From contig NZ_CP150265.1 of assembly GCF_037976325.1 (NCBI RefSeq), positions 2,351,501-2,415,500 of the forward strand: a stretch of DNA of 64,000 nt, written 5' to 3'. This document shows, piece after piece, positions 34,870 to 42,963 of this stretch (positions within the stretch are counted from its first letter, which is position 1; each line of letters starts with the position of its first letter). The notes beneath the pieces are model-generated. The model ran no database searches. It had not been told where the DNA came from and saw nothing but the letters and a program-made list of their open reading frames with translations. Position numbers and translations under genes: made by a program. The stretch comes from Paenibacillus sp. FSL K6-3182. GTDB lineage: Bacteria; Bacillota; Bacilli; Paenibacillales; Paenibacillaceae.

Positions 34870-34898
34870 TTGTCTAATCCTTTCAAATTTGATACAAT
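34870..34898 (+). promoter_or_regulatory. putative promoter of the cobalamin-controlled transcript
   Basis: TTGTCT (34870-34875), 17-bp spacer and TACAAT (34893-34898), about 40 bases before the riboswitch begins. Confidence 0.5.
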
Positions 34899-34934: not shown

Positions 34935-35115
34935 AATATGGTGCTGCCGTGAATCTATCATTCACAAGCAGCTTAATAGGGAAGTTCGGTCAAAATCCGA
35001 CGCGGTCCCGCCACTGTATCGCGGAGCAGATGATCATGTTGTCCACTGTCATATCATGACGGGAAGGAGATCGTCTATGCAATGAAGCGAAGCCAGGAGA
35101 CCTGCCATAGGAGCG
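34935..35115 (+). promoter_or_regulatory. cobalamin riboswitch
   Basis: The conserved core is present in order: GGTGCTGCC near 34940, AATAGGGAA (34974-34982), GCGGTCCCGCCACTGT (B12-box region, 35002-35017), GGGAAGG (35061-35067) and GCGAAGCCAGGAGACCTGCC (35088-35107). It binds adenosylcobalamin-type ligands and should switch the downstream surface-protein genes off when B12 is abundant, via the terminator at 35207. Confidence 0.95.
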
Positions 35116-35206
35116 CTCTATATTTCTCACGAGGATGGGAGGGAGATGTTTATTCGTGCTTTTGCAATAGGTGGATTCCTATGCTTCCATGCGCACGTGT
35201 TTATCC

Positions 35207-35240
35207 AAACATCTTTCCACAAACGGAAAGATGTTTTTTT
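35207..35240 (+). terminator. riboswitch expression-platform terminator
   Basis: 12-bp stem AAACATCTTTCC/GGAAAGATGTTT with a 6-base loop and T run. The 5' arm can instead pair with GGGAGATGTTT at 35141-35151 (11 pairs including two G-U), giving a mutually exclusive antiterminator. The gene start is 33 bases downstream. Confidence 0.9.
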
Positions 35241-35272
35241 GTTGCCAAAAATGATTAAAGGGAGAGAAAACA

Positions 35273-38200
35273 TTGCTTAATTTAAAAAGATTTATGAAAA
35301 AGAGTTTGCCTGCTATTTTAAGTTTTGTATTGGTGTTTACTTTATTTGCACCACAAGTAGGTAAAGCGGCAGATCATTCTGCGAATGCTTCATTGAATGA
35401 GATGATTGATAAGACGGTTGAGTATTATAAAAACAAGAAAAAGCCTTTGACATCGTGGGTGGAAATTGTAGCGCTTTGGGGCGCTGGCGTAAATTTGAAC
35501 GACGGCGACTGGCAGCTGCCAAGCTGGGAGACACAGGAGCCTACAAATCCGGTACTAAAACCGGATAATGGAGGAACTGAGCATATCCGTTACATATTCG
35601 GACTGCTTGCTATGGGTGAAGATCCTGCTCATGCGTGGGAAACAGATCGTAATCTGTATGCCGAGCTGGCATCGCAGCAAGATGCAGCCACGGGAGCAAT
35701 TGGTTCAACAAACAAACATATGTGGGCAATGCTTGCCCTTGATACTGGCGAAAAGCTAGGAAGCAACGTTGGAAAATGGGATGCAGCTGCTAAGAAAAAA
35801 GCAGTAGATTTTTTACTAAGCAAGCAACTGGCTGATGGCGGCTTTGCTTACTTCGGAACGAAGTCTGATCCAGATATGTCAGGGATGGGCCTGTTAGCAC
35901 TTGGAAATTATCAGGATGACAGCGCTGTTCAAGCGGCAATTGAAAGAGTGAAAAGTTATTTACAAACGATAAAGCTAAACCAAGAACATATTATGTTTAG
36001 CGACAATAACTCGAATAGTCTATCCACTGTAGTGACCGGAATAACGGCTATTGGCGAGGATATTTTATCTGATGTCTGGACAGCGAACGGTAAAACGGTA
36101 CTTGATTCTTTCTCTTTATTCCAGCTTCAGGATGGATCATTTAAATACCTTCTTAGCGGCGGATCTAATGGAATGGCGACTGAGCAGGCGCTAATTGCCC
36201 TGCTTGATATTAAATATCAGAAAACGGTATGGCATCGTTTAGAGGAAATTAAACAACCTATTTCTGTTAATATGAGTGTTGATGGCGTTACGGGTTCTGT
36301 TTATGGCAAGCAACCGGTAAATTTCACTCAAATTAAAAGGCCAACAGTGTTGGATGCGTTTAAGACTGCTTTGGATAATGCCTCACCAGCAATTTCCTAC
36401 AATATTGTAAACAGCAGTTATGGCCCTTATATTAAAGGGGTTGCAGGACAAAATGCGGGCACCTTTGGCGGCTGGGATGGCTGGGTGTATACAGTCAACG
36501 GCATAGCTCCGAACGTAGGTGCAGGCTCTTACAAGCTTAAAGCTAACGACGAGGTTCGTTTCTTCTATAGCCGTTATGCAGATATTACAACTGGAACAAC
36601 GCTTGTAAATGGTGCAACTAATCCATCAGTTGATGTAAAGCTTGTTGGAGATGAGTTCAACAGCAACGCGCTAGTGAAGAATAATTGGAAAATTAACTCT
36701 GACGTATCGGGACTGACGATTGAGTCGATCGTGAAAGAAAGCGATCAAAAGATCAAACTTAATTTGTCAGGCAAAGCTACAGAAAAAGCAGTGACCATCC
36801 AAGCATTGGGAGCAGCTTTAGTTGGTAAAAAAGACAGCACTACAATTACGCTGCGGGTTCCTGTAACCGCTAAGCTGCAGGTAGATGGCCGTTCCAGTTC
36901 GATTTATAGCAAACAAGCGGTAACGGTGAAAAACACGGTTAAGCCAGTAACTGCATTGGATGTGCTAAAACAAGCACTCAATCAAGCAGATCCTAAAATT
37001 AGCTATAAAATTGAAGATAGCAGCTACGGACAGTATGTTTCTGCCATAAACGGAGAAGCAGCGGGTACATTTGGCGGTTATGATGGCTGGATGTATGAAG
37101 TGAATGGCATTGCTCCAATGGTTGGAGCAGGTGAATACGAGCTTAAAGAAAACGATGAGGTTCGTTTCTATTACAGCAGATGGCCGGCGATTTCTTCGGG
37201 CTCGAAAATTGCAAATGGTGCTGTAGATCCATCGATTGAAGTAAAACTTGTCGGCGATGAGTTCACTAATCAAGCAACGGACATTAAAAACTGGTCAATT
37301 GATCCAGGAAATACAGGCCTTCAAGTTAATACCTTTACGCGAGATGGAAATAAAATAACGATTTCGTTAACTGGAACTGCAACTGGCGGCGCGATTACGA
37401 TTAAAGCGCTTGGGGCTGCTTTTGTTGGCGGACAAGATAGTGAAGATCTAATCTCAATTGCCGTACCACGTGTTGTTGGGGATACAACGGATCAAAGCTT
37501 TGCCATCAACAAGAACGAGAAAGAGGTTGTTGTTGGCGCAGCAAGCGGTGGTCAAGTAACAAACAATGTAACCCTTACATTTGAAACAACAGCATTGCCA
37601 AAAGTAACAGCGACACGCGGTACTACAGTACTTGAAATTCCAGCTGCTACAGTGGTGACAACAACGACATGGGATAAAGCACTAGCACTCCCAAAAAATC
37701 TAAGCATCGATGAAAGTGGTTTGGCTTCCAAGCTGGATGCCGTTTTATCAGCTGACAGCAAGAAAGTGGAATCCATAGCCGTTCGCATTCAAGTTGGCGG
37801 TTCTGCAAAAATTCAATTTAATCAGCATGTATCCATCACGCTGAAGGGTCAAGGCGACAAGGAAGCTGGTTTCATTGATCAAGCAGGTGTATTCACGCCA
37901 ATTAAGAAATATGCAGATTCATCCGTTCGTACGGATGAGGTTTATGCTTACAAAAAAAATAATGACTTAGTTATTCAAACGAAACATTTTACACAATTTC
38001 TTGCTTACAAAACTGCTGCTGTAACCAATCCTGGCGGTGGCGATGGTGGTACTGCTCCAATTGTTCAGAAGGTTACACTGTCCGTTGAGAAACGTTCGAT
38101 AAACGAAGGCGATTTCGTTGCACCAATTACTGTAACTATACAAGATGGCGATACTGCTTTTACAGCACTGAAACGTGCACTTGAAGATAAAAGTATAGCT

Positions 38201-39016
38201 ATTGATTACTCCGGATCAGGCTCAAGCACTTATGTGAAATCGATTGGCGGTCTTGCTGAATTCGATAAAGGCAAGGAAAGCGGCTGGATGTACTCCGTTA
38301 ACGGCGTTTTCCCTAAAATAAGTGCGGGTTCCTATACTTTGAAAAATGGAGACGTGCTGCGCTGGCAGTATACGAAGGATCTAGGTAAAGATCTTGGCGC
38401 TCCAACAGAGCCAGGTGAATCAGGTGGAATAGGCGGAGTAGGCGGTGGCGATAAGCCAGAGCAGCCTAATGCAACAAAATACTCAGATGAATCAAAAATT
38501 GCAAGCTGGGCTTTGGAAGCAGTAAACAAAGCAACGGCACTAGGCTTCATGCAAGGCACAAGCACGAGCAATGCAACATTCGAGCCTAAACGTAATTTGA
38601 CGCGTGCTGAATTTGCAGCGCTAATGGTAAAGTATTCCGGAGCAGACCCTATTATGGAGGATTCCGGCTTTAAGGATGTTAACAGTGGGGCATGGTATTA
38701 TGGTTATGTTAAAGCAGCTAAAGAAAAAGGATTGATGTCAGGTGTAACTGAAACTTCTTTTGCACCGAACCAACCGATTACAAGACAAGAAATGGCTGCC
38801 GTTTTAGTTAGACTTAAAGGTCTAGCTGATGAGAATGCACCACAAGCAGCAATTAAGGATCGTGACGCTGTTGCAGCGTGGGCTGTTCCTTATGTAAATG
38901 TAGCTTACCAAAAAGGTCTTATGACAGGAGATAACGGCAAGTTTAATCCACAAGCTCTTGTTACACGTGAGATGGCAGCTGTTACGATCATCCGACTTCA
39001 TGAATTGAAATCATAA
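35273..39016 (+). CDS. SLH-anchored surface protein with alpha/alpha-barrel and three transcobalamin-like DUF4430 domains
   Basis: Cell-wall protein of 1247 residues, probably capturing cobalamin or a related corrinoid outside the cell. The signal peptide is at 1-33. Residues about 40-320 have repeats of the prenyltransferase/squalene-cyclase kind (DFLLSKQLADGGFAYF, LFQLQDGSFKYL), i.e. an alpha/alpha barrel. Three DUF4430 domains lie at about 326-440, 532-640 and 933-1030, each with the signature GW(V/M)Y.VNG and a final (N/G)D.(V/L)R(F/W).Y. Three SLH domains (about 1072-1247, with ITRQEMAAVLVR) bind secondary cell-wall polymer. Barrel plus DUF4430 is the architecture of animal intrinsic factor/transcobalamin. 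The cobalamin riboswitch directly upstream supports the ligand assignment. TTG 35273 has AAAGGGAGAG 6 bases upstream. Confidence 0.88.
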   Translation: MLNLKRFMKKSLPAILSFVLVFTLFAPQVGKAADHSANASLNEMIDKTVEYYKNKKKPLTSWVEIVALWGAGVNLNDGDWQLPSWETQEPTNPVLKPDNGGTEHIRYIFGLLAMGEDPAHAWETDRNLYAELASQQDAATGAIGSTNKHMWAMLALDTGEKLGSNVGKWDAAAKKKAVDFLLSKQLADGGFAYFGTKSDPDMSGMGLLALGNYQDDSAVQAAIERVKSYLQTIKLNQEHIMFSDNNSNSLSTVVTGITAIGEDILSDVWTANGKTVLDSFSLFQLQDGSFKYLLSGGSNGMATEQALIALLDIKYQKTVWHRLEEIKQPISVNMSVDGVTGSVYGKQPVNFTQIKRPTVLDAFKTALDNASPAISYNIVNSSYGPYIKGVAGQNAGTFGGWDGWVYTVNGIAPNVGAGSYKLKANDEVRFFYSRYADITTGTTLVNGATNPSVDVKLVGDEFNSNALVKNNWKINSDVSGLTIESIVKESDQKIKLNLSGKATEKAVTIQALGAALVGKKDSTTITLRVPVTAKLQVDGRSSSIYSKQAVTVKNTVKPVTALDVLKQALNQADPKISYKIEDSSYGQYVSAINGEAAGTFGGYDGWMYEVNGIAPMVGAGEYELKENDEVRFYYSRWPAISSGSKIANGAVDPSIEVKLVGDEFTNQATDIKNWSIDPGNTGLQVNTFTRDGNKITISLTGTATGGAITIKALGAAFVGGQDSEDLISIAVPRVVGDTTDQSFAINKNEKEVVVGAASGGQVTNNVTLTFETTALPKVTATRGTTVLEIPAATVVTTTTWDKALALPKNLSIDESGLASKLDAVLSADSKKVESIAVRIQVGGSAKIQFNQHVSITLKGQGDKEAGFIDQAGVFTPIKKYADSSVRTDEVYAYKKNNDLVIQTKHFTQFLAYKTAAVTNPGGGDGGTAPIVQKVTLSVEKRSINEGDFVAPITVTIQDGDTAFTALKRALEDKSIAIDYSGSGSSTYVKSIGGLAEFDKGKESGWMYSVNGVFPKISAGSYTLKNGDVLRWQYTKDLGKDLGAPTEPGESGGIGGVGGGDKPEQPNATKYSDESKIASWALEAVNKATALGFMQGTSTSNATFEPKRNLTRAEFAALMVKYSGADPIMEDSGFKDVNSGAWYYGYVKAAKEKGLMSGVTETSFAPNQPITRQEMAAVLVRLKGLADENAPQAAIKDRDAVAAWAVPYVNVAYQKGLMTGDNGKFNPQALVTREMAAVTIIRLHELKS

Positions 39017-39023
39017 TTTACTC

Positions 39024-39070
39024 AGCTGTCTCGTAGGCTATTGCAATAGCTGCGGGACAGCTATTTTCTT
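39024..39070 (+). terminator. intercistronic stem-loop, probable partial terminator
   Basis: Arms AGCTGTCTCG/CGGGACAGCT with an inner palindrome GCTATTGCAATAGC, followed by ATTTTCTT. It may reduce read-through from the 1247-residue gene into the next. Confidence 0.65.
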
Positions 39071-39092
39071 GAAAGGAGAGTGTGGATTCAGG

Positions 39093-40613
39093 ATGAACAA
39101 AAAATCCGTATTGCATAAACCATTATTATTGTTGGTTATATACGCATTAATGCTTTCTTGCGTCAGTACGGCTCTGTTGCCTATGCAGCGCGCGGCAGCA
39201 GCAGAAACGATGGCGGTAGAGAATGAAATGACATCAGCCGCGAAACAAATCTTAAGCAGCGGCACCATTAGCGATTGGGAAGCGATTGCCTTATATCGGT
39301 CTGGCCATGTGGTGCCAGCAAGTTATTTGAACGGGCTGGCTTCTTATTTAAAAGAGAACAAAGGTGAATTCCGCAAAGTAACCGACCTTGAAAGAATGGC
39401 TATTGCGATTAGAGCGGCAGGTGAAGATGCAGCCTCCTTCGCTGGCTACAATCTCATTCAAAGCATCTACAATCATTCGAGAATGACGAATCAAGGCACA
39501 AATGGCGTGATTTTTGCATTGATTGCTTTGGATAGCGGTAATTATGAGGTGCCAGCAAGTGCCTTATGGACACGTACGAAGTTAATAGATTGGCTGCTCA
39601 GCCAGCAAAATACGAGTGGAGCATTCCCGCTATCGGAGAAATCCGAGGATAATTTAGATATAACCGCCATGGCGATTAGCGCACTCGCTCCTTACCAAGA
39701 ACAAGTAAAAGTGAAAAGTGCAATCGATAAAGCTGTAAAATGGCTGTCTTCTGAGCAGCAAGTAAATGGCGGTTTTAACGCGTTTGGAGACGACAACAGT
39801 GAGAGCGTGGCTCAAGCTATTATTGCTCTGTCAGCTGTGGGAGTTAGTCCGATGGAATCCAGCTTTATGAAAAAGAACGGGAATCTCCTAACGAGCTTAT
39901 TGAGATTCCAGCTTGCGGATGGTAGTTTTGCACATGCACTTGGTCAGCCATCAAATGAGATGGCAACGGAGCAAGCGTTGATGGCGTTAGCCGCGTACGA
40001 CCGCTATAGCAAGCAAAAGCCGGCGTTGTTCAACATTTCGGCGGATACAGAGTTGACGGGCAGCAAGCCGCAATTTGTAGACAATAACCTCATTTCCGTA
40101 TGGGCCTATGATGCTGTTTATAGCGTGTTCGAAGCTAAAGTTATGGTAGGAGTAAGCGGTTCGGAGCTTCGCTTTGATCCGAAGAAGCAGATGACAAGAG
40201 CTGAATTTGCAACCTTGCTCATCAATCTATTGGAGGAAGCCCCTGCTAATGAAGCAGCAAAAGTGTTCAAGGATGTTCAGCCTGGCGCATGGTATTACGG
40301 AGCCATTATGCGTGCCAAGGAACTTGGCATCATTCAAGGGATTACAATAGATTCGTTCAAACCGAACCAAGCGGTAACAAGACAAGAAATGGCGATCATG
40401 ATTGCCAAGGCTTTCAAGCTTAAGGGCAGCACAGATACACTTCCTTTTAAAGACGAGAGCAGCATTCATGAAAGTGCAAAAACATACGTCAATGCCGTAT
40501 ATGTAAACGACTTGATGCAGGGCTCGAACGGAAGCTTTAATCCGAAAGCGGTCGTTACGAGAGAAATGGCAGCCCTGGTAGCCCATAAACTGCTGGAATT
40601 GCCGGCAGCCTAA
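39093..40613 (+). CDS. SLH-anchored alpha/alpha-barrel surface protein
   Basis: A 506-residue companion of the preceding protein: signal peptide (to about residue 33, ends RAAAAE), then an alpha/alpha-barrel region (about 40-315, with LIDWLLSQQNTSGAFPL, WLSSEQQVNGGFNAF and LLRFQLADGSFAHAL), then three SLH domains (about 330-506, ending EMAALVAHKLLEL). It lacks DUF4430. ATG 39093 has AAAGGAGAG about 12 bases upstream and CAGG nearer; the TTG at 39069 lies before the ribosome site and is excluded. Only 76 bases separate it from its neighbour, so both are likely under the cobalamin riboswitch. It could be the barrel half of a two-component corrinoid grip. Confidence 0.87.
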   Translation: MNKKSVLHKPLLLLVIYALMLSCVSTALLPMQRAAAAETMAVENEMTSAAKQILSSGTISDWEAIALYRSGHVVPASYLNGLASYLKENKGEFRKVTDLERMAIAIRAAGEDAASFAGYNLIQSIYNHSRMTNQGTNGVIFALIALDSGNYEVPASALWTRTKLIDWLLSQQNTSGAFPLSEKSEDNLDITAMAISALAPYQEQVKVKSAIDKAVKWLSSEQQVNGGFNAFGDDNSESVAQAIIALSAVGVSPMESSFMKKNGNLLTSLLRFQLADGSFAHALGQPSNEMATEQALMALAAYDRYSKQKPALFNISADTELTGSKPQFVDNNLISVWAYDAVYSVFEAKVMVGVSGSELRFDPKKQMTRAEFATLLINLLEEAPANEAAKVFKDVQPGAWYYGAIMRAKELGIIQGITIDSFKPNQAVTRQEMAIMIAKAFKLKGSTDTLPFKDESSIHESAKTYVNAVYVNDLMQGSNGSFNPKAVVTREMAALVAHKLLELPAA

Positions 40614-40620
40614 AATCAGA

Positions 40621-40669
40621 AGAAGCGAAATGAAAGAGCAAGCTGCTCTTTCATTTCGCTTCTTTTTTT
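40621..40669 (+). terminator. very strong Rho-independent terminator
   Basis: Perfect 20-bp stem (40621-40640 with 40644-40663), 3-base loop AGC, then a T run. Confidence 0.97.
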
Positions 40670-40833: not shown

Positions 40834-42963
40834 GTGAATATATTAAAGCTAGTCATGTCACTAATGCTCGGATTACAGCTATTGATAATACCTAATCAGG
40901 CTTCGGCAGAGGCGCCGGATTCCAAAGACTATTATCTAATTGAACTTTCTAAGTTTGGCATTTATAACGATGGTACACATCCTATTGAGACAACAAAGGG
41001 CATAAACAATGCACTGCAATGGGCGGTTAAAAATGGGAAAACGACGACGTCACTGCCGCCGGGTACCTATTTAATCGATAAAGCTAACCGGATTAATATG
41101 GTCAGCAATATGGTGTTTGATCTCCCGATGGATGCGGTGCTCCAGAAGGAAACAAATGATAAAGAGTCGTATCAACTCATGTATTTGGGTTATGGCGTTC
41201 ATAACGTCACGCTGAGAGGCGGGACCTATGCAGGTGACCGGGAAACACATAACTATTCTAAAAAAGACAATAAGCACAGCTCAGGCACACATGAAGCTGG
41301 TTATGGCATTTTTACACAAGGAGCTTATGATATTACCATTGACGGTGTGAAATCGATTAATTTTACAGGCGATGGTCTCATACTGGGCGGTTACGGCACG
41401 ATGGCAAAGGATTTGTATGAAGATCATTTTGTATTAGGCGCATTCGATGATAAAGGAAAAAATGTCGCGAATGCCAAAAAGCTTCGAACGAAGCAGCCGC
41501 TTAATTTTACGAACACGATTTTTAAAACGGAAAAACAATTTGAACTGTCGAATGCGATTAAGCTGCCATATAAATTTGATATCTTCTTCTATAAAGCGAA
41601 CGGAGCTTTTATTAAGAAGCTGGCAAATGTGAAGGTGCGCGAGCTCATCGACATACCGGAAGGAGCGACGCAGTTCCATCTTGTATTCGAGCAAGCGACC
41701 AAAAAAGGCGCCTATGTGGAATTTTGGAACAAAAGTGTAACGAAAAACGTGGTTGTGAAAAATTCTGAATTTGCTTATAACCGTAGGCAAGGGATTACGG
41801 TCGGCGGTGCTGACCAAGTACTTATTCAGAACAACGTTCTTCATCATATCAAAGGGACGATGCCGCAGTCGGGAATAGATGTGGAGGGCGGTTTTGGCGA
41901 GAACGGACACCGCAACAGCAATATTACGATCAAAAGCAATAAATTTCACGATAATGCTTCGTACGATGTCATTCTTTATGATGGAAAAGACGCAATCGTA
42001 GAAGATAATCATTTGGCATCAAAAGGTGCGATTGGGCTAGCCATCTCCGATCCATTTAAAGGGGCCATGATCAAAGGCAATCACTTTGACGGCTCGCGCA
42101 TTGCAGCGGCTCACGATGCTACATTTATCGATAACAAGATGAATGATTCCTATACTTCGTTTACGGGTCCTAATATCAAAATAGATGGAATGACCTTTAC
42201 GGACTCTATGTTTTTAATTAGTGCGAAGGATGCTTTTGGAGTGAGTGCATCGAACATCGTTATGAATAACAACAAAAAGAGTGATTCTGGTCTATCGCTT
42301 TGGGGAAAACCGATTCGATTGAAAAACATAACGATTAACGGCGAGGGTAAGCTTAGGGTCGTAACGGGCGGTATAACCGAGGGCTCGATCATCGATAACT
42401 TAAAGGTAACCGGCTTTAATACCGATTCCGGGTTAACGCTGCCTCCTGCCACATACAACAACTGCGAATTTATCGGAGCCACGGGAACGGGTAAATTTGG
42501 ATCGATTGCGGTTGCACAAGCCGGCAAATATGTGTTCGATGGCTGTACCTTTCAATCACCGCCAGCGCTTAGCACATTAGTGATCGCTGAACATCCGAAG
42601 CTTGATTTGACAATCAAAAATTCGACATTTGAGCTATTAGGCAACTCCCAAGCCATTAGTGTACAATCGGCGAAAAACCTGCTGCTGGAGAATAATACGA
42701 TTACAGCGGAAAAGCTGACCTCCGATAAGACGGAGATTGTGCGTATTAACGATTATTGGAAACGAAATGATCCGCATGATGTTCTTAAAGCAGTGATTAG
42801 AGGAAATACGATTAAAACCAATTTGGCGGCAATCGGCATCACTACTTTGTACGCGGGAACAGGAGCACCAGCCTATCTCATTGAAAACAACACCTTATAC
42901 ACAGCTAAGCTGGTTCAAAAGAAAAACGATATTTTGAAAAATAATTCGATTAAGAAACAATAG
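40834..42963 (+). CDS. secreted right-handed beta-helix protein
   Basis: A 709-residue exported protein: signal peptide (to about residue 25, QASAEA), then parallel beta-helix repeats of the pectate-lyase/GH28-like kind. It starts with the domain opener FGIYNDGTHPIETTKGINNAL followed by LPPGTYLI, and continues as repeated NV.I.NN/ NITIKSNKFHDN coils to the end. An inserted sandwich-like segment lies at about residues 195-300. GTG 40834 follows AGGAGG. It probably binds or cleaves an acidic or neutral polysaccharide; no catalytic set typical of pectin lyases or polygalacturonases could be assigned. It stands alone between terminators. Confidence 0.8.
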   Translation: MNILKLVMSLMLGLQLLIIPNQASAEAPDSKDYYLIELSKFGIYNDGTHPIETTKGINNALQWAVKNGKTTTSLPPGTYLIDKANRINMVSNMVFDLPMDAVLQKETNDKESYQLMYLGYGVHNVTLRGGTYAGDRETHNYSKKDNKHSSGTHEAGYGIFTQGAYDITIDGVKSINFTGDGLILGGYGTMAKDLYEDHFVLGAFDDKGKNVANAKKLRTKQPLNFTNTIFKTEKQFELSNAIKLPYKFDIFFYKANGAFIKKLANVKVRELIDIPEGATQFHLVFEQATKKGAYVEFWNKSVTKNVVVKNSEFAYNRRQGITVGGADQVLIQNNVLHHIKGTMPQSGIDVEGGFGENGHRNSNITIKSNKFHDNASYDVILYDGKDAIVEDNHLASKGAIGLAISDPFKGAMIKGNHFDGSRIAAAHDATFIDNKMNDSYTSFTGPNIKIDGMTFTDSMFLISAKDAFGVSASNIVMNNNKKSDSGLSLWGKPIRLKNITINGEGKLRVVTGGITEGSIIDNLKVTGFNTDSGLTLPPATYNNCEFIGATGTGKFGSIAVAQAGKYVFDGCTFQSPPALSTLVIAEHPKLDLTIKNSTFELLGNSQAISVQSAKNLLLENNTITAEKLTSDKTEIVRINDYWKRNDPHDVLKAVIRGNTIKTNLAAIGITTLYAGTGAPAYLIENNTLYTAKLVQKKNDILKNNSIKKQ

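Follow-up and report, generated by a model that had tools for sequence, protein, structure and literature searches.

We analyzed a 64-kb window of the genome of Paenibacillus sp. FSL K6-3182, which consists of a single 7.56-Mb contig, and focused on a two-gene unit (the A-B unit) that encodes two predicted wall-anchored proteins, one of them with a transcobalamin-like part (Table 1). The sequence-only reading of this DNA had placed a cobalamin riboswitch ahead of a 1247-residue protein. The riboswitch is indeed present as a full-length aptamer, the sole Rfam match above cut-off in the window, yet the start given for it (34935) lies 13 nucleotides (nt) too late. Between the aptamer and the start codon of open reading frame (ORF) A lies an intrinsic terminator; the beginning of its 5' arm (35207–35214) pairs perfectly with an upstream 8-nt stretch, and among the leaders of named relatives 36 of 44 show a comparable terminator-like hairpin, versus 25 of 220 random stretches. 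As read from the sequence, aptamer, terminator and competing arm have the layout of a transcription-terminating off-switch, by which B12 would repress the A-B unit. The TTG start codon of ORF A is preceded by GGGAGAG.

Table 1. Features of the A-B unit and its leader, in window positions.
Feature	Position	Strand	Basis
Promoter-like site TTGTCT-17-TACAAT, TG ahead of -10	34870..34898	+	Consensus scan, 9/12 matches; scan weak overall (20 sites vs 18.1 in shuffles)
Cobalamin riboswitch aptamer RF00174	34922..35123	+	cmscan 103 bits (cut-off 31.5), E 1.1e-24, full length 1-189
Candidate antiterminator arm AGATGTTT	35144..35151	+	Perfect pairing with 35207-35214, inverted repeat I4; putative role
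Intrinsic terminator (expression platform), in aptamer/start-codon interval	35207..35236	+	12 perfect pairs, then T run
ORF A, wall-anchored transcobalamin-like protein, TTG start, 1247 residues	35273..39016	+	Signal peptide (by eye), toroid, 3 x DUF4430, 3 x SLH
Toroid (alpha/alpha barrel) of A, about residues 35-318	35375..36226	+	AlphaFold2 helices; alignment A1
DUF4430 domain 1, directly behind toroid, about residues 332-440	36344..36571	+	PF14478, 54.3 bits
DUF4430 domain 2, about residues 553-645	36950..37177	+	PF14478, 66.5 bits
DUF4430 domain 3, about residues 951-1035	38147..38377	+	PF14478, 82.9 bits
Three SLH domains of A (wall anchor), about residues 1078-1240	38504..38992	+	PF00395, E 5.8e-38
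ORF B, 514 residues as listed	39069..40613	+	Signal peptide, toroid (about 39201-40058), three SLH
Strong bidirectional terminator at end of A-B unit	40619..40665	+	20-pair stem, T run

The domain composition proposed for A in the sequence-only reading, an alpha/alpha-barrel region followed by three DUF4430 domains and S-layer homology (SLH) anchors, is borne out. All three DUF4430 domains pass the PF14478 cut-off of 23.8 bits with 54–83 bits (whole-protein E 2.3e-53), and the predicted signature GWxYxVNG is found three times in the translation, as GWVYTVNG, GWMYEVNG and GWMYSVNG. In the Protein Data Bank (PDB), the SLH part matches the S-layer protein sap (E 2.8e-13). Although the barrel region, hereafter toroid, stays under the Pfam cut-off (Prenyltrans E 0.18, 11.7 bits versus 26.5), it is clear in the AlphaFold2 (AF2) model of residues 31–445, with a mean predicted local distance difference test score (pLDDT) of 87.5 and two weaker 10-residue blocks near the N-terminal third (pLDDT 45–50), and it is homologous to ORF B (BLAST E 7e-20). 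ORF B is the expected second barrel-SLH protein, its toroid matching Prenyltrans with E 2.2e-9 and modeled with pLDDT 92.7.

Fold and sequence searches point from A to the animal B12 carriers. When the AF2 model of residues 31–445, comprising the toroid and DUF4430 domain 1, was compared with the PDB by Foldseek, ranks 1–17 were all transcobalamin, haptocorrin or intrinsic-factor chains, with E-values of 1.1e-9 to 3e-4. A profile of toroid–DUF4430 modules (alignment A4, in which one row, L109, with its end apparently in the wrong frame, was used unchanged) retrieves haptocorrin (4kki) as the top PDB sequence with E 1.9e-6 and transcobalamin-2 chains with E 6e-4 to 3e-3, and a phmmer comparison of DUF4430 domain 2 with Transcobalamin-1 (4kki) reaches E 0.45 only. 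Like transcobalamin, haptocorrin and intrinsic factor, A carries in one chain a toroid directly followed by a beta-grasp domain, and these carriers are its first PDB matches in both fold and sequence. We therefore regard it as established, at the level of the model, that A holds a two-domain transcobalamin-like module. The animal carriers are single and soluble, whereas A belongs to the wall and combines several domains, among them three beta domains and an anchor. Among the aligned toroids, the candidate corrinoid-contacting residues D201 and Q305 are invariant in 26 of 26 and N/S246 is kept in 25 of 26; the toroid residues could not be brought into register with haptocorrin. One further position is mostly histidine (21 of 26 in alignment A1 and 13 of 13 in the B-type set A2) and is replaced by tyrosine or tryptophan in A and four other toroids; histidine and tyrosine/tryptophan toroids perhaps represent two kinds of site.

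Genome searches identified three cobalamin riboswitches, which head metE, a lipoprotein–ECF (energy-coupling factor) operon and the window locus, respectively, and four DUF4430 domains, all of them behind two of these riboswitches. The ECF operon, about 2.45 Mb from the wall locus, runs from its riboswitch through a DUF4430 lipoprotein (lipobox LLAGC), a CbiQ-family EcfT and a double ATPase with two ABC domains to an S component. A profile of 12 S-component proteins matches PDB entry 6fnp with E 1.4e-23, the next match having E 0.02; 6FNP is the structure of ECF-CbrT (PMC5997447). The operon thus combines a CbrT-homologous S component with EcfT and EcfA genes, and it gives a concrete partner to the earlier suggestion that corrinoid is scavenged before membrane uptake. 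The accompanying statement that no BtuF-type gene adjoins the locus also holds: PF01497 has no match among 21 scanned window ORFs (45 ORFs of at least 150 residues are listed), and no BtuF-type gene follows the other two riboswitches within the stretches read there. B12-binding domains in the host genome belong to MetH, a DUF4080 radical-SAM protein and a MerR regulator, and the search of this genome for CbiC, which marks de novo synthesis, gave no match. By its gene content, the host is in outline a predicted B12 scavenger with MetE as a fallback.

Conservation of such loci, which the sequence-only reading had raised, is evident at two taxonomic depths. The order sample comprises 40 genomes, 25 from within the genus (host included) and 15 from other families of the order. 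DUF4430 is present in 16 of them, and 37 of 37 DUF4430 frames, which are headed by 28 of 94 riboswitches and hence not independent, lie downstream of a cobalamin riboswitch on the same strand at 0.36–9.65 kb (one sub-cut-off riboswitch of genome G006 was excluded before the count). All 16 genomes combine one short frame of lipoprotein size (273–359 residues) with at least one longer frame, and CbiC is found in none of the 16 versus 6 of the remaining 24. Among 20 operons fetched out of 26 riboswitch-led DUF4430 loci of relatives, 10 unite a toroid with EcfT-EcfA-EcfS genes in one cluster, and one holds a lipoprotein–ECF set without a toroid. A relative that belongs to a different family of the order encodes a 596-residue protein (L051:5494-7284, minus strand) in which a CbrT-type S component is fused to a toroid; a signal-like hydrophobic stretch separates the two and would place the toroid outside. 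The fusion is a natural link of surface module and importer. The phylum sample comprises 119 genomes, host included, with RF00174 in 113 and DUF4430 in 37. Its 85 DUF4430 domain rows collapse, at one row per frame, to 74 frames, of which 61 lie within 15 kb behind a cobalamin riboswitch.

A third set comprises 79 named loci drawn from a toroid profile search, from the 80 top-ranked among at least 561 matches (Paenibacillus, Cohnella, Bacillaceae, Clostridia and others); since the loci are best matches, their counts describe this set and not all bacteria. The closest among them is that of Paenibacillus sp. FSL A5-0031, with 99% identity to the ORF B toroid. A strict riboswitch pattern, which misses 2 of 21 known loci, lies upstream of a toroid gene in 54 of the 79, and none has a riboswitch on the opposite strand. 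An EcfS match is found in 61 loci, a separate DUF4430 protein in 64, toroid and DUF4430 within one protein in 60, and SLH on a toroid protein in 51; several loci without SLH show LPxTG-like signals at the protein end instead. Taken together, these arrangements establish, as far as gene order and content can, lasting genetic ties of the toroid/DUF4430 module to a CbrT-type importer.

Based on the leader, domains and gene associations, we consider it highly probable that the A-B unit is a corrinoid-repressed surface capture unit whose transcobalamin-type parts serve a wall-to-membrane B12 relay. At low intracellular cobalamin, the leader would read through the terminator and A and B would be made, secreted and then kept in the wall through their SLH domains. 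The toroid of A and the DUF4430 domain behind it would grip a corrinoid from two sides, in the manner of the transcobalamin domains, while the extra DUF4430 domains of A and the toroid of B may provide additional sites or half-sites. The bound corrinoid would then be handed over to the DUF4430 lipoprotein and on to the CbrT-type ECF importer, and would finally feed MetH. The surface corrinoid scavenging proposed in the sequence-only reading is supported by the leading fold ranks, the haptocorrin match and the complete riboswitch linkage in the order. The two halves of the module are variously distributed, both occurring in A, the toroid only in B, the beta domain only in the lipoprotein, and a toroid fused to an S component in one relative. 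It is conceivable, though rather unlikely, that Bacillota thus run a "split transcobalamin" relay, with halves on separate proteins and corrinoid moving from wall to membrane by half-site exchange; if so, the B12 carriers of animals would represent the same system in one piece.

Several observations weigh against the capture-and-relay reading. The TM-scores (template modeling scores) to the 17 carrier chains are only 0.36–0.44 over the two-domain model, with a root mean square deviation of about 22 Å, and some terpene cyclases further down the same list reach 0.43–0.45; the domain arrangement of A in the model differs from that of the carriers or is unsettled. Taken by itself, the toroid has a generic fold that fits terpene cyclases and prenyltransferases at least as well as it fits transcobalamin, and toroid residues could not be aligned in register with haptocorrin. 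ORF B has no DUF4430 match at E up to 1 in the Pfam scan, so it has no beta domain and does not repeat the two-domain build of A. In the phylum sample, 13 of the 74 frames are unlinked, 10 of them not within 15 kb behind a riboswitch on their own contig (some contigs being short) and 3 from genomes in which no riboswitch was found. Finally, wall locus and ECF operon are not adjacent in the host genome, and 9 of the 20 fetched operons likewise contain a wall protein without ECF genes. The unspecific toroid, together with the frequency of SLH domains in wall proteins, would suit the view that A and B have ordinary S-layer or adhesion roles, contain a toroid of the terpene-cyclase type and stand behind a riboswitch by chance; we consider this very improbable in light of the riboswitch linkage (37/37 and 61/74), the lead of the carriers in the fold ranking of the two-domain piece, and the CbrT-type ECF genes within the same clusters. 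The separation of wall locus and importer genes, in the host and in those nine operons, and the presence of three DUF4430 domains in A could instead indicate storage or sequestration, in which B12 is hoarded at the wall, out of reach of competitors, and little of it passes directly to the importer. That function is unlikely, as toroid and ECF genes do share a cluster in half of the fetched operons, all 16 DUF4430 genomes of the order pair a longer frame with a lipoprotein-size one, and the L051 protein joins EcfS and toroid.

Capture and relay by the same fold could also serve mainly a corrinoid precursor or analogue, such as cobinamide or other cobamides, a possibility of substantial though minor weight. 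CbrT is reported to carry cobinamide too (PMC5997447), haptocorrin, the best sequence match, also binds non-cobalamin corrinoids (PMC3105116, PMC3360681), and a reviewer's comment in PMC1796856 cautions that other ligands may be bound within the clade. On the other side, the riboswitch indicates sensing and MetH indicates use of a cobamide, a result that does not separate precursor or analogue from cobalamin.

In the Isd/NEAT haem relay of Gram-positives, wall-anchored binders pass a metallo-tetrapyrrole inward to a lipoprotein and an importer, much as proposed here, although fold, ligand and regulation differ from those of the A-B system. The BtuG and BtuH proteins of Bacteroides have folds different from those of the toroid/DUF4430 proteins. 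They resemble the system predicted here as surface B12 binders ahead of a transporter (PMC6143338, PMC8941943), but belong to a Gram-negative outer-membrane system with BtuB (PMC8941943). The ECF-CbrT of Lactobacillus delbrueckii is of the same S-component family as the partner operon; the relevant sections of its report describe no extracellular binding protein, the main text lacks the word lipoprotein, and CbrT there lies in an nrdJ-cbrS-cbrT-pduO cluster, unlike the partner operon here (PMC5997447). Closest is the account by Burroughs et al. 2007 (PMC1796856), which, in the sections relevant here, predicts toroid-plus-SLBB surface proteins of Gram-positives to be B12 scavengers, describes operons with CbiO/CbiQ genes and a second paralogous SLBB protein, and proposes such bacteria as the source of the B12 carriers of animals. 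Its transcobalamin-clade SLBB proteins of low-GC Gram-positives share with the present ones the secreted or wall-anchored toroid plus DUF4430/SLBB, the paralogous second SLBB protein, the CbiO/CbiQ-type operon genes and hosts without key B12 synthesis enzymes. In comparison, the present system is riboswitch-led and SLH-anchored, has a CbrT-type S component with a DUF4430 lipoprotein, is spread over two loci, and has, in part, its toroids and beta domains on different proteins; the main text of that paper uses none of the words riboswitch, SLH and S-layer. Because of this prediction, and because our literature search turned up no experimental test of corrinoid binding by such proteins, the system is best described as a variant of an already predicted kind. 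The core scavenger idea has been known since 2007, and the additions are the linkage to riboswitches, the anchoring through SLH, the CbrT identity of the S component and the toroid/beta splitting.

The following features were also observed. Within the A-B unit, the likelier start of ORF B is an ATG at 39093, 13 nt 3' of AAAGGAGA, and between the two ORFs (39024–39062) an imperfect inverted repeat followed by a short T-rich stretch is visible by eye, which could lower the output of B relative to A. Behind the unit, positions 40834–42963 encode a 709-residue right-handed beta-helix protein, a homologue of which (64–76% identity) likewise lies 3' of the wall-protein gene at L045, L046 and L049 and was not found in stretches L038 and L040. 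The three DUF4430 frames of the phylum sample whose genomes gave no riboswitch match (G101:C52:5670-5861, G140:C80:11699-11887 and G092:C4:91843-92073), two of only 125–131 residues, may have another regulator or another ligand. Genome G106, only 2.1 Mb in size, has 13 cobalamin riboswitch matches, the highest number of 18 genomes compared; three are sub-cut-off and were excluded, one of which (23.8 bits) lies 547 nt ahead of a DUF4430 frame counted as unlinked. Downstream of the riboswitch-led metE, within 1.6 kb, locus L008 (5838–7374) contains three c-di-AMP (cyclic di-adenosine monophosphate) riboswitches, close to potassium transport genes that are Kdp-like by gene names read by eye. In Calidifontibacillus, a 2063-residue surface protein (L076 5228, plus strand) contains two toroids and one strong and eight weak matches to our own DUF4430 model; the weak matches, of about 18 bits, are evenly spaced, and the protein is possibly a beta-domain array.

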